Positions 32,890 through 37,030 of a DNA stretch of 64,000 nucleotides are shown in pieces. The translations under genes and the position numbers were made by a program. The stretch's first letter is position 1, and every line of letters begins with the position of its first letter. Under the pieces are notes generated by a model that was not told the DNA's origin, made no database searches, and was given only the letters and a program-made list of their open reading frames with translations. This DNA is from Luteimonas mephitis DSM 12574 (GTDB taxonomy: Bacteria; Pseudomonadota; Gammaproteobacteria; Xanthomonadales; Xanthomonadaceae), in assembly GCF_000422305.1 (NCBI RefSeq), contig NZ_AULN01000018.1, forward strand, positions 1 to 64,000. The letters run 5' to 3'.

Positions 32890-34341
32890 ATGAACCCGCA
32901 GGTGAGGACCCTGGCAGACATCGCGCCGCTGGCGCCCGAACTGCTGGTGATCCTCGGCGCGTTCGGCCTGCTGATGCTCGACCTGTTCCTGGAGGAGCGT
33001 CGCCGCATCGTCACCCATGTCGGCGCGATCGGCGTGCTGCTGGCCGCCGCGTGGATGGTCGCCGCGGGCACGGGCGGGCAGGGCGCGGTGATGCACGACA
33101 TGTTCATCCGCGACGGCATCGCCGACGTGCTCAAGATCTCGCTGCTGCTGGTTTCGGCCACGGCGCTTGGCTACATGTGGACCTTCATGCGCGAGCGCGG
33201 CCTGTACAAGGGCGAGCTGCCGGTGCTGGTGCTGTTCGCGAACGTGGGCATGATGCTGCTGGTATCGGCCGGCAACCTGACCATGGTCTACGTGGGCCTG
33301 GAACTGCTGGCGCTCAGTTCGTACGCACTGGTGGCGATCGACCGCGACAGCCCGCTGTCGTCGGAAGCGGCGATGAAGTATTTCGTGCTGGGCGCGCTGG
33401 CCTCGGGCATGCTGCTGTACGGCATGTCGCTGCTGTACGGGGCCACGCACTCGCTGGACCTGGCGACGATCCATGCCGTCGCCGGCACGCTGGCCGGAGA
33501 CGACCGCGTGCTGATGCTCACCGGCACGGTGTTCCTGGTCGTCGGCATCGCGTTCAAGTTCGGCGCGGCGCCGTTCCACATGTGGCTACCCGACACCTAC
33601 CACGGCGCGCCCACGCCGATCACGCTGTTCATCGGTTCGGCACCGAAGCTTGCGGCGTTCGGCATGACCTACCGCCTGCTCGAAGCGGGGCTTGCCCCCG
33701 CGGGCGACCAGTGGCACCTGTTGCTGGCGGGGCTCGCGGCGCTGTCGCTGGTGATCGGCAACGTCGTCGCGATTGCGCAGACCAACCTCAAGCGCATGCT
33801 GGCGTATTCCACCGTCTCCCACGTCGGCTTCATTTTCCTCGGCTTTGCCGGCGGCGGCGCCGAGGGCTATGCGGCGGCGATGTTCTACGCGATCAGCTAC
33901 GCGATCATGGCGGCCGCTGGCTTCGGCGCCATCGTGATGCTTTCGCGCAACGGCTTCGAGGCCGACCGCATCGACGACTTCAGGGGACTCAACGCGCGCA
34001 ATCCGTGGATGGCGGCGCTGGTGCTGTGCGTCATGGCGTCGATGGCCGGCGTGCCGCCGTTCCTCGGCTTCTGGGCAAAGCTGGCGGTGCTGCGCGCGGC
34101 GATCCATGGCGACATGATGTGGCTGGCGATCGTCGGCATCGTGTTCGCGGTGATCGGCGCCTTCTACTACCTGCGCGTGATGAAGGTGATGTACTTCGAC
34201 GAACCGGAGGGCGAACCGATCCAGGTCCGCCCCGGGCGCCCGCTGCAGGTGGTGTTCTCGATCAACGCGATCTCGCTGCTGGTACTGGGTTTCGCCTGGA
34301 GCCCGCTGATGGCGTGGTGCCAGCGCGCCTTCGGAGTCTAG
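32890..34341 (+). CDS. nuoN: NADH-quinone oxidoreductase subunit N
   Basis: 483 residues. It is the third antiporter-like subunit. MVYVGLELLALSSYALVA holds the conserved glutamate; FKFGAAPFHMWLPDTYHGAP and AYSTVSHVGFIFLGFA follow. Three in-frame ATGs compete (32860, 32878, 32890). 32890 is preferred because AAGGA lies 5 nt upstream and the protein then starts just before the first helix, as in relatives. It closes the nuo operon; no T-rich terminator follows directly, only the paired repeat at 34389. Confidence 0.94.
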   Translation: MNPQVRTLADIAPLAPELLVILGAFGLLMLDLFLEERRRIVTHVGAIGVLLAAAWMVAAGTGGQGAVMHDMFIRDGIADVLKISLLLVSATALGYMWTFMRERGLYKGELPVLVLFANVGMMLLVSAGNLTMVYVGLELLALSSYALVAIDRDSPLSSEAAMKYFVLGALASGMLLYGMSLLYGATHSLDLATIHAVAGTLAGDDRVLMLTGTVFLVVGIAFKFGAAPFHMWLPDTYHGAPTPITLFIGSAPKLAAFGMTYRLLEAGLAPAGDQWHLLLAGLAALSLVIGNVVAIAQTNLKRMLAYSTVSHVGFIFLGFAGGGAEGYAAAMFYAISYAIMAAAGFGAIVMLSRNGFEADRIDDFRGLNARNPWMAALVLCVMASMAGVPPFLGFWAKLAVLRAAIHGDMMWLAIVGIVFAVIGAFYYLRVMKVMYFDEPEGEPIQVRPGRPLQVVFSINAISLLVLGFAWSPLMAWCQRAFGV

Positions 34342-34388
34342 CGCGGCGAAGCTGCGCAAGGGAATGCCGCGCGAAGCGCGCCAGATTT

Positions 34389-34558
34389 CCCTCCCCTTCA
34401 AGGGGAGGGCAAGGGTGGGGATGGGTTTCCGGGCCAGTAGTTGAGGCTGAACAGTCCACGCCCTTGGCTTGAGCCACGATGCTGAGAAACGGCGTGCGTG
34501 ATCGGCACCACCCCCTCGGGCTGGACAACCACCCCACCCTTGCCCTCCCTTGAAGGGG
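34389..34558. repeat. Large inverted repeat after nuoN
   Basis: The left arm at 34393-34424 (CCCCTTCAAGGGGAGGGC, then AAGGGTGGGGATGG) is matched by the right arm at 34529-34558, with one single-base gap. The left arm also forms a local hairpin (34389-34409). The stretch between the arms (about 104 bases) has no ORF. With the rest of the 296-bp gap up to the tRNA, it contains only this repeat and the tRNA promoter. A diverged copy lies in the trpB-trpA gap. Confidence 0.8.
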
Positions 34559-34597
34559 CGTGAAACCGGACGCGCTTGCGCGCGACATCCTCAAGGG

Positions 34598-34626
34598 TTG
34601 CATTAAATTCCCGCAGTCACCATAAT
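34598..34626 (+). promoter_or_regulatory. Sigma-70 promoter for tRNA-fMet and probably rimP-nusA
   Basis: TTGCAT (34598-34603), a 17-base spacer and CATAAT (34621-34626). The expected start of transcription is near 34633, just ahead of the mature tRNA 5' end at 34638. This is one of the best-matching promoters in the window. Confidence 0.75.
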
Positions 34627-34637
34627 CCCGCTCCTGA

Positions 34638-34714
34638 TGCGGGGTGGAGCAGTCTGGCAGCTCGTCGGGCTCATAACCCGAAGGTCGCAGGTTCAAATCC
34701 TGCCCCCGCTACCA
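34638..34714 (+). tRNA. Initiator tRNA-fMet (anticodon CAT)
   Basis: 77 nt with encoded CCA. Initiator marks are present: three consecutive G-C pairs closing the anticodon stem (CGGG CTCATAA CCCG) and an unpaired 1:72 position. Here the end bases are U1 (34638) and U72 (34710), a U-U mismatch, whereas E. coli has C-A. Pairs 2-71 to 7-66 are all Watson-Crick. The location before rimP-nusA matches metY of E. coli. Confidence 0.95.
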
Positions 34715-34735
34715 GCTTTTCGCGGTCGACGAAAA

Positions 34736-34756
34736 GCCTCCACGGAGGCTTTTTTT
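34736..34756 (+). terminator. Intrinsic terminator after tRNA-fMet
   Basis: Stem GCCTC/GAGGC (34736-34740, 34745-34749) with loop CACG, followed by seven T. It is preceded by a second pairing, GCTTTTCG/CGAAAAGC, at about 34715-34737. It would end the tRNA transcript or act as the first of two attenuators ahead of rimP. Confidence 0.85.
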
Positions 34757-34822
34757 GATGGCGGCAAGTCGGGCTTGATCGAGGCAGGCTTCATGCCTCG
34801 GTGCCGAAATCCAGTGGTATCG

Positions 34823-34855
34823 GACAAGGGGCCCAATGGGCCCCTTGTCGTTTTT
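34823..34855 (+). terminator. Strong intrinsic terminator/attenuator upstream of rimP
   Basis: A perfect 12-bp stem (GACAAGGGGCCC at 34823-34834, complement at 34838-34849) with a 3-base loop is followed by G and five T (34851-34855). It lies 54 bases before the rimP ATG, with no obvious promoter between, so rimP-nusA transcripts from the tRNA promoter must read through it. This is a plausible site of autoregulation by NusA. Confidence 0.85.
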
Positions 34856-34908
34856 GGGGCCCTTCCGCGACGAATCGTCATGCAGGCAGCAGGATCTTCA
34901 CGGAACAG

Positions 34909-35511
34909 ATGACCGACAAGGCAACCCAAATCGCGACGCTCCTCGCGCCGACCGTCCGCTCCCTCGGGGTGGAACTGCTCGGCATCGAGTACCTGCCGGC
35001 CCCCGGCAGCGCGGTGCTGCGCCTGTACATCGACGTCCCGGCCGATGCCGGCGACGGGCGCCAGGTCGGCATCGAGGATTGCGAAGCGGTCAGCCGCGAA
35101 GTGTCGGCGCAGCTCGACGTCGAGGATCCGATCAGCGGCAACTACACGCTGGAAGTGTCCTCGCCGGGCGTCGACCGGCCGCTGTTCGCGCCGGAACAGT
35201 TCGCGCGGTTCCTGGGCGAGCGCGCCAAGGTCGGTCTCAAGCTGCCGCAGGACGGGCGGCGCAGGCTGCAGGGCGTCATCGCCGCAGTCGACGGCGATCG
35301 CATCACCTTCGACGTCGACGGCGCGCCCGTGCAGGTCGGCTTCGACAACATCGACAAGGCGCGCCTGGTCCCGGACTGGGCGGCCATGGGCCTGGCGCCC
35401 GCGCAGGACAAGTCGGGGCGCGACGCGCGTCCGGGCAAGCAGGCCAAGAACAAACCCACAGACAAACGAACCAACAAGACGGCGGCGGCAAAACCGTCCC
35501 CCGCGGAGTGA
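34909..35511 (+). CDS. rimP: Ribosome maturation factor RimP
   Basis: 200 residues. It assists late 30S assembly. RimP N- and C-domain blocks are visible: [34 protein letters not shown]-like [36 protein letters not shown] and [13 protein letters not shown] lysine/threonine-rich tail (about 30 residues) is extra. ATG 34909 was chosen; an in-frame GTG at 34801 would translate the terminator stem. nusA follows after 7 bp. Confidence 0.95.
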
Positions 35512-35518
35512 GAAACAG

Positions 35519-37030
35519 ATGAGCAAGGAACTGTTGCTGGTCGTGGATGCGGTTGCCAACGAAAAGGGCGTGCCGGAGTCCGTGATCCTCGAGGCGATCG
35601 AAGCGGCGCTGGCCACTGCGGCCAAGAAGCGCTATCTCGAGCAGGACGTGCTGACGCGCGTCGAGATCGATCCCAAGGACGGCAACTACCAGACCTATCG
35701 GCGCTGGGAAGTGGTGGCCGACGACGTGGTGATGGAGTCGCCCGACCGCCAGATCCGCCTGATGGATGCGCTCGACGAAAGCGAGGGCGCCGAGGTCGGC
35801 GACTACATCGAGGAACAGATCGACAACGTCGATTTCGGCCGCATCGCCGCCCAGGCCGCCAAGCAGGTGATCGTGCAGCGCGTGCGCGAGGCCGAGCGCG
35901 CGCAGGTCGTCGATGCATGGAAGGACCGCGTCGGCGAACTGGTGACCGGCATCGTCAAGCGCGTCGAGCGCGGCAACGTCTACGTCGACCTGGGCGGCAA
36001 CGCCGAGGCGTTCATTCCCAAGGACAAGGCGATCCCGCGCGACATCGTGCGCGCAGGCGACCGCATCCGCGGCTACCTGTACGACGTGCGCACCGAGCCG
36101 CGCGGCCCGCAGCTGTTCATCAGCCGCGCCGCGCCGGAATTCATGATGGAACTGTTCAAGCTCGAAGTGCCGGAAGTCGGCCAGGGCCTGGTCGACATCA
36201 AGGCCTGCGCGCGCGACCCGGGCGACCGCGCCAAGATCGCCGTGCTTGCCTACGACAACCGCACCGACCCGATCGGCGCCTGCATCGGCATGCGCGGGTC
36301 GCGCGTGCAGGCGGTGTCGAACGAGCTCAACGGCGAGCGCGTGGACATCGTGCTGTGGTCGGACAACCCGGCGCAGTTCGTGATCAACGCGATGGCGCCG
36401 GCCGAAGTGCAGTCGATCGTGGTCGACGAGGACAAGCATTCGATGGACCTGGCCGTGGCCGAGGACCGCCTCGCGCAGGCGATCGGCAAGGGCGGCCAGA
36501 ACGTGCGCCTGGCCAGCCGCCTGTCGGGCTGGCAGCTCAACGTGATGACCCAGGACCAGGTCGCCGAAAAGTCGGAGGCCGAGCAGGCCGCCGCGCGTGC
36601 GCTGTTCCAGGACAAGCTCGAGGTCGACGAGGAAATCGCCAACATCCTGGTCACCGAGGGCTTCAGCACGGTCGAGGAAATCGCCTATGTCCCGGTCGGC
36701 GAGCTGCTGGCCGTGGAGGGCTTCGACGAGGACATCGTCGAGGAGCTGCGTGCCCGCGCACGCGACGCGCTGCTCAACGACGCGCTCGCGGTCGAGGAAG
36801 AGCTCGACGAAAACGCGCCCGCCGACGACCTGCTGGCGCTGGAAGGCATGGACGAGGAGACGGCGTTCGCGCTGGCTTCCCACGGCGTGCGCACCAGCGA
36901 GGACCTGTCGGACCTGGGCGCGGACGAAGTGGTCGAGTTCGGCATCGAGGGCGTGGATGAATCACGCGCCGCGGCGCTGATCCTGGCCGCGCGTGCGGAG
37001 GAAATCGCGCGCCTGGAACGCGAAAGCTGA
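35519..37030 (+). CDS. nusA: Transcription termination/antitermination factor NusA
   Basis: 503 residues. It binds RNA polymerase and stimulates pausing and intrinsic termination. The N-terminal polymerase-binding domain is 1-125, followed by S1 (about 133-200, GIVKRVERGNVYVDLGG). Two KH domains follow (ACIGMRGSRVQAV, AIGKGGQNVRLAS). Two C-terminal acidic repeats (about 360-495, ILVTEGFSTVEEIAYVP and ALASHGVRTSEDLSDLG) are of the alpha-CTD-binding type found in proteobacteria. Coupled to rimP. A 245-bp gap to infB is unusual. Confidence 0.97.
   Translation: MSKELLLVVDAVANEKGVPESVILEAIEAALATAAKKRYLEQDVLTRVEIDPKDGNYQTYRRWEVVADDVVMESPDRQIRLMDALDESEGAEVGDYIEEQIDNVDFGRIAAQAAKQVIVQRVREAERAQVVDAWKDRVGELVTGIVKRVERGNVYVDLGGNAEAFIPKDKAIPRDIVRAGDRIRGYLYDVRTEPRGPQLFISRAAPEFMMELFKLEVPEVGQGLVDIKACARDPGDRAKIAVLAYDNRTDPIGACIGMRGSRVQAVSNELNGERVDIVLWSDNPAQFVINAMAPAEVQSIVVDEDKHSMDLAVAEDRLAQAIGKGGQNVRLASRLSGWQLNVMTQDQVAEKSEAEQAAARALFQDKLEVDEEIANILVTEGFSTVEEIAYVPVGELLAVEGFDEDIVEELRARARDALLNDALAVEEELDENAPADDLLALEGMDEETAFALASHGVRTSEDLSDLGADEVVEFGIEGVDESRAAALILAARAEEIARLERES

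Follow-up and report, generated by a model that had tools for sequence, protein, structure and literature searches.

A conserved structured leader with a probable antiterminator ahead of rimP-nusA in Luteimonas mephitis

The locus, its terminators and its promoter-like sites

The window, a stretch of 64,000 nt from the start of contig NZ_AULN01000018.1 of Luteimonas mephitis DSM 12574, contains in this order nuoN (named by eye), an inverted-repeat element, a promoter, the gene of an initiator tRNA, two intrinsic terminators (T1 and T2), rimP and nusA, and the features from the promoter onwards lie on the forward (+) strand. Our subject is the segment 34765-34860, which includes T2 and which we favour, with moderate confidence, as an attenuator leader of rimP-nusA that would act as an antiterminator/terminator switch with NusA as its most likely effector. 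The tRNA-Met gene (34638-34714, anticodon CAT) shows by eye the 1:72 mismatch and the three anticodon-stem G-C pairs of an initiator tRNA, and no other full-length initiator copy was found in the 3.4-Mb assembly. The gene rimP (34909-35511, ATG at 34909) was identified with NCBIfam RimP models, of which the best gave 276 bits (1.1e-82), below that model's cut-off of 293, while NF000927 gave 169 bits, above its cut-off of 162; nusA (35519-37030, ATG at 35519) matched TIGR01953 (NusA) with 414 bits against a cut-off of 253, and infB, read from the list of open reading frames with no model run, follows 3′ of it.

An earlier note on this DNA had placed two intrinsic terminators between the tRNA and rimP, and both were found at the positions and with the base counts that it gave. 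T1 (34732-34756) reads AAAAGCCTC-CACG-GAGGCTTTT, a GCCTC/GAGGC hairpin whose scored stem (34732-34753) ends within the seven-T run at 34750-34756. T2 (34823-34855) reads GACAAGGGGCCC-AAT-GGGCCCCTTGTC at 34823-34849, a perfect 12-bp stem with 9 G-C pairs, and is followed by GTTTTT through 34855; as the note had also said, its last T lies 53 bases upstream of the rimP ATG. The scored stems are 69 nt apart, and 59 nt separate the end of the T2 stem from the ATG. With our own scorer T2 reached 38, a value seen in none of 1,000 dinucleotide shuffles of the 194-nt gap, and T1 reached 26, a value seen in 20 of them; two hairpins of at least 26 never occurred in one shuffle. The predicted RNA fold of 34715-34911 had z = -4.8 relative to 200 shuffles. 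A mechanical terminator scan listed T2 together with one weak site on the opposite strand, and left T1 unlisted.

Conservation was read from the rimP loci of 29 same-genus relatives and of the window's own genome (L001-L030) and from 80 named contigs (L031-L110), largely of Luteimonas, Lysobacter, Thermomonas, Pseudoxanthomonas and Stenotrophomonas; the two sets have 15 genomes in common, which gives 95 non-redundant loci, and a set of 103 distinct loci keeps some genomes twice. The T2 core GGGCCC-N3/4-GGGYCC was present within 420 nt of rimP in 106/110 loci (91/95 non-redundant), and the remaining four (L037, L059, L060 and L062) carry a variant of it. In eight loci (L051, L055, L067, L070, L077, L080, L103 and L106) T2 ends 110-170 nt before rimP instead of ∼50 nt, which leaves room for extra leader sequence. 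The T-rich tail could be read in 102 of the 103 loci, and its second, third and tenth bases were T in all of them, with G at base four in 84 and at base seven in 77; the longest T run was 3-5 in 91 loci, 6-7 in nine and 2 in two. Distal interruptions of the U tract have been noted in NusG- and NusA-dependent terminators of Bacillus subtilis (PMC8060035), and the likeness of the interrupted T2 tract to these is only suggestive.

T1 behaves differently, with scores of at least 20 in 32/81 loci with the tRNA nearby and in 9/22 without it (some genomes counted twice). Since T1 reaches this score in only part of the loci while T2 persists, T1 is an optional companion and T2 the constant part. T1-like hairpins were also seen by eye in other families of the order. 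In two loci of one of these families (L154 and L157, family f11), with no tRNA within 600 nt and no T2-like hairpin before rimP, a lone GCCTC/GAGGC terminator stands near the rimP start codon, and the two hairpins may therefore substitute for each other. As no further full-length initiator copy besides this tRNA was found in the genome, T1 may in the window let far more tRNA than mRNA be made.

The best promoter-like site upstream of the leader is the sigma-70-like TTGCAT-17-CATAAT at 34598-34626, present where the earlier note had put it and scoring 7.6 on a simple consensus scale weighted by hexamer frequencies. On the same scale the best site in the tRNA-rimP gap scored 2.7; as to a separate strong promoter at 34855-34909, which the earlier note had considered, the best site after T2 scored 0.7. 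Where the tRNA is no more than 500 nt from rimP (87 loci, some genomes counted twice), a site above 5 was present in the 100-nt region upstream of the tRNA in 87/87, with a mean of 9.4 versus 3.5 for letter-shuffled sequence. The tRNA-rimP gaps of these loci had a mean of 3.1 versus 4.5 for letter-shuffled sequence and exceeded 5 in 10/87. Thus no good promoter-like site was found between tRNA and rimP by the consensus scan. A stricter sigma-70 scan of 34300-35400 listed zero promoters and missed even the site at 34598-34626, so promoter absence in the gap is only weakly supported. In agreement with the earlier note's proposal that rimP-nusA RNA reads through both terminators, the well-scoring promoter-like sites lie upstream of both.

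A covarying domain that runs into T2

The earlier note had treated the two terminators as the only clear signals ahead of rimP; in fact the stretch from T1 to T2 also holds a conserved structured domain, which continues into T2. It spans ∼95 nt (34765-34860), and in the leader alignment it consists, in order, of [UC][CU]GGGCU, a sequence-variable hairpin, CCGA-AUCCAG, CGGACAAGGGGCCC and T2. In the window the variable hairpin (helix 2) occupies 34778-34802, and a CCGA..UCGG hairpin with the conserved AUCCAG in its loop, predicted for the antiterminator form by folding and conservation, occupies 34804-34823. A covariance model, R2, was built from 15 sequences, the window included, and the window as a seed scored 102.2 bits. 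When R2 was run on the loci of 94 relatives (two genomes twice, 15 being model seeds), E was at most 1e-5 for 93 and 3.7e-4 for L078. Matches on the reverse strand, which arise from the T2 palindrome alone, reached up to 33.5 bits, a level exceeded in 91/94 loci; scores near or below it, as in L078 (25.1), L037 (31.2) and L095 (33.6), do not establish that the entire domain is present.

Covariation was counted in alignment A4, for which 85 of 96 sources were submitted with an E limit of 1.8e-6 and 83 matched (82 distinct), L037 and L095 being unmatched; L044, L045, L069, L073, L078, L083, L086, L093, L100 and the non-family L111 and L113 were omitted. The weakest rows were thus gone before pairs were counted and the alignment was fitted to R2, which favours the model in the following numbers. 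Compensatory changes occurred at 9/9 pairs of the central helix among the 82 distinct rows, and the whole structure had 222 double-changed cells versus 59 in shuffles and a covariation score of 0.302 versus 0.131, neither value being reached in any of 500 shuffles. When partners were shifted by one to three columns the score was at most 0.065. Unlike this covarying hairpin, the T2 core is nearly invariant. A previous model (R1), made from a MAFFT alignment in which the variable hairpin was misaligned, gave only two compensatory pairs and was dropped.

Across the order R2 matched 31/151 genomes at E ≤ 1e-3. In the window's family these were 23/25 genomes including its own, and rimP was next in all 23; elsewhere in the order eight genomes matched, and the seven of them with loci have no rimP there (tblastn). 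Across the class 19/229 genomes matched at the same limit, three of the window's own family (E of 9.4e-9 or better) and 16 others (best 4.7e-6), and for the best three matches outside the family (G248, G270 and G278) rimP was located elsewhere. Matches outside the family were taken as chance, and R2 found no match in the E. coli locus (L111) or in another-family locus (L113). Of the two same-family misses, G090 has a GGGCCC..GGGCC hairpin before rimP and G127 has a GGGGC..GCCCC hairpin with a T tract there. Inspection by eye of 24 loci from other families of the order revealed a tRNA, a GCCTC/GAGGC-like hairpin and a GGGCC..GCCC-like terminator in varied combinations, all without the conserved domain. 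We found no description of the domain in the literature, in a search with limited coverage of subscription papers.

Two other kinds of signal in the leader were considered and rejected. A short ATG frame past T1 (MAASRA and a stop, by eye) is not conserved in relatives, L007 for example, and was not retained as a leader peptide. The leader GTCGGGCT is identical to 8 nt in the anticodon arm of the tRNA, but relatives carry TCTGGGCT, CTTGGGCT or CCGGGCTT, and this resemblance was attributed to chance.

Leaders without the adjacent tRNA

In 77/95 non-redundant loci no more than 500 nt separate the tRNA from rimP. Of the other 18, two (L037 and L040) are contigs that start near rimP, which leaves 16 genomes without a rimP-adjacent tRNA. 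All 16 keep T2 and have a promoter-like site (score 6.5-10.9) 115-202 nt upstream of it, taken as the top site in a scan over at most 330 nt with no shuffle control; the domain exceeds 34 bits in 14 of them (exceptions L078 and L095), and T1 scores at least 20 in seven. Because T2 and an upstream promoter-like site persist in these genomes, the T2 domain is, as judged from sequence comparison, a leader of rimP and not merely a terminator of the tRNA, and the initiator tRNA, which the earlier note had as an insulated first product, is not essential to it.

These genomes also bear on the simpler account in which T1 and T2 do no more than end the initiator-tRNA transcript, as two ordinary terminators in a row, and rimP is served by unregulated leakage. 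Both hairpins do stand directly 3′ of the tRNA in the window, and T1 is shaped like a plain terminator. However, T2 is kept in the 16 genomes, each with its upstream promoter-like site, the domain outscores the T2 palindrome (about 34 bits) in 14 of them, and all 23 same-family R2 matches are ahead of rimP, and we consider this account very unlikely.

The tRNA 3′ end was searched for in 21 tRNA-less loci (some genomes twice). It was intact in eight (L034, L044, L052, L064, L069, L018, L095 and L110), 0.5-2.5 kb before rimP, an arrangement suggestive of a DNA insertion that parted the tRNA from the leader; L017 had a nearby remnant and 12 had none in the DNA examined. In several such loci the new 5′ part of the leader has, by eye, a hairpin like a worn acceptor stem (CAGCGG..CCGCTG). 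L169 (G030) resembles L017 (G002) by eye in having only the tRNA 3′ end, GCCCCCGCTACCAG in L169 and CTGCCCCCGCTACCAG in L017, and these remnants, which lie 3′ of the promoter-like site and 5′ of the leader, look like decayed tRNA. On the far side of the tRNA promoter in the window, an inverted REP-like element at 34364-34600, with CCCTCCCCTTCAAGGGGAGGGCAAGGGTGGGG in its arms, separates nuoN from the promoter; one arm of ∼42 nt is repeated in the genome, and a 221-base query gave 24 genome matches, a count that includes the query and its inverted arm.

Proposed antiterminator pairing, likely effector and known systems

The proposed antiterminator pairs a GGGCUU block (34771-34776) as its 5′ strand with GGGCCC (34829-34834), the part of the T2 5′ arm that both forms would share. 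The GGGCU positions are conserved at 98, 98, 96, 94 and 87%, and the two positions opposite the G at the block end are U or C in 76/80 and 68/77 lettered rows. When the window transcript was ended after the T2 5′ arm, GGGCUU was predicted to pair with that arm, with two hairpins enclosed. In such truncated transcripts the block-arm pairing had a probability above 0.5 in 75/91 loci (mean 0.79, versus 0.22 with the eight-base block permuted) and in 66/83 non-redundant loci (mean 0.78); an earlier, looser measure had given 81/91. Loci without a [TC][CT]GGGC[TC] block, 12 of 103 or 12 of 95 non-redundant, were left unscored. On these folding results the GGGCUU/T2 5′-arm helix is a probable antiterminator. 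A downstream GGGGCCCTT at 34856, also able to pair with GGGCUU, is not kept in most relatives and was set aside.

Several observations weigh against a switch of this kind. Block-arm pairing is disfavoured in 17/83 non-redundant loci, 12 more lack the block as defined, and three of these block-less loci (L095, L108 and L110) are without any GGGC there. The antiterminator strands are near-invariant, so covariation cannot test their pairing; this near-invariance fits the pairing and cannot prove it. A nested structure (UCGG/CCGA plus UCC/GGA, as in R2), in which just the two leading G of the block are paired, fits equally well, with 94.8% versus 93.2% of cells paired. The terminator form of the window leader has -46.3 kcal/mol and the antiterminator-forced form -36.7 kcal/mol, and since the full leader thus favours T2 by ∼10 kcal/mol, the antiterminator would act only kinetically or with help, and the default would be termination. 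GGGc..gCCC-like stems also precede rimP in other families that lack the conserved domain, and hence the invariance of T2 may have another cause. Moreover, a search of the 3.4-Mb genome for the 17-nt T2 core with at most one mismatch gave a single site, but a backward control pattern has three matches per strand, so this rarity proves nothing beyond the T2 core not being a dispersed repeat.

In the switch that we favour, the nascent leader would first fold as a three-way junction in which GGGCUU and the T2 5′ arm enclose the covarying hairpin and the CCGA/UCGG hairpin. Once the polymerase has copied the 3′ arm (GGGCCCC), T2, as the more stable hairpin, could take over and end transcription at its imperfect U tract ∼53 bases upstream of rimP, and the escaping fraction would set rimP-nusA expression. 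NusA would most likely shift the balance to T2, giving negative feedback on its own operon, an assignment suggested by the homology of the context. T1 would keep most transcripts of the initiator tRNA apart from the operon in the window genome, and would not be required in the family. The same three-way junction, with its near-invariant AUCCAG loop and the T2 5′ arm as closing stem, might instead make the Lysobacteraceae leader a separate class of regulatory RNA, in which a bound protein or small molecule, and not merely NusA at a hairpin, decides rimP-nusA-infB transcription; we hold this to be rather improbable.

Feedback by NusA has precedents. The rimP-leader was named by Naville and Gautheret in 2010 with NusA proposed as effector, and their paper (PMC2965389) calls it the most ubiquitous transcription attenuator and describes a GGGc..gCCC terminator with a T stretch 4-130 nt before rimP-nusA-infB, to which several Gammaproteobacteria add a tandem upstream terminator, CCCg..cGGG, and a possible antiterminator. 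The window element likewise lies directly 5′ of rimP-nusA-infB, and T2, with GGGGCCC-AAT-GGGCCCC, GTTTTT and 59 nt to the ATG, agrees with the general motif. The window element differs from the tandem form in that T1 is GCCTC/GAGGC instead of CCCg..cGGG and lies outside the proposed antiterminator, and in that a family-specific covarying domain precedes T2. The Rfam family RF01770 ('Gammaproteobacteria rimP leader', gathering score 47 bits) had no match in the window region even at E ≤ 10 and none at the gathering score in four relatives (L034, L036, L095 and L106), and in 61 genomes, the window's own included, none exceeded the cut-off under strict filters that lose some weak matches; a match below it was in G051, of another family (39.5 bits), and the positive control, E. 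coli, gave 102 bits. In B. subtilis, NusA autoregulation by leader termination is reported in a review (PMC12288461, citing Mondal 2016), and there as in the window an intrinsic terminator stands in the leader of the nusA operon; the feedback through NusA-stimulated termination is reported for B. subtilis, and for the window it is a proposal.

The E. coli metY-nusA-infB operon has the same order on one strand, tRNA-fMet, two terminators, rimP and nusA. When the E. coli K-12 leader was cut at the t2 5′ arm, that arm was predicted to pair with a strand upstream of t1 and to enclose two hairpins, the same topology as in the window in other letters, and forbidding the t2 arm cost 5.4 kcal/mol, the start of the folded piece having been chosen by us. 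E. coli also has a promoter, P2, at the metY 3′ side (PMC6511841), and no counterpart of it was visible in the window gap by the consensus scan (best site 2.7).

Two further readings come from this operon. The same paper reports its induction by cold, and CspA-family cold-shock RNA chaperones, instead of NusA, might melt T1/T2 and raise rimP-nusA-infB in the cold. This is the main rival to NusA feedback, to which we give a limited chance: it need not exclude control by NusA, and the E. coli data concern other leader sequences. The paper further describes RNase III processing sites that free the tRNA from metY-nusA transcripts, and the domain could in the same way be mainly a processing or stability element (such as an RNase III or RNase E entry site that separates tRNA from mRNA), with T2 as a by-product. 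A processing site would have no need of the T-rich tail after T2, whose longest T run is at least 3 in 100/102 loci, and T2 stays where the tRNA is gone, which makes this highly improbable.

The NusA proposal of the earlier note is reasonable, but largely the known rimP-leader story. Its feedback logic agrees with the conservation of T2 before rimP (91/95, with a variant in four) and with the B. subtilis precedent, but what it would act on is a structured leader with a probable antiterminator and not two bare terminators. The analysis adds to this a family-wide covarying leader domain that Rfam does not recognise here, with its probable antiterminator and its independence of the tRNA. The leader would offer a compact antiterminator/terminator pair, together with natural cases in which the leader is kept and the tRNA is gone, and could show clearly whether feedback by NusA is widespread or limited to the two model species.
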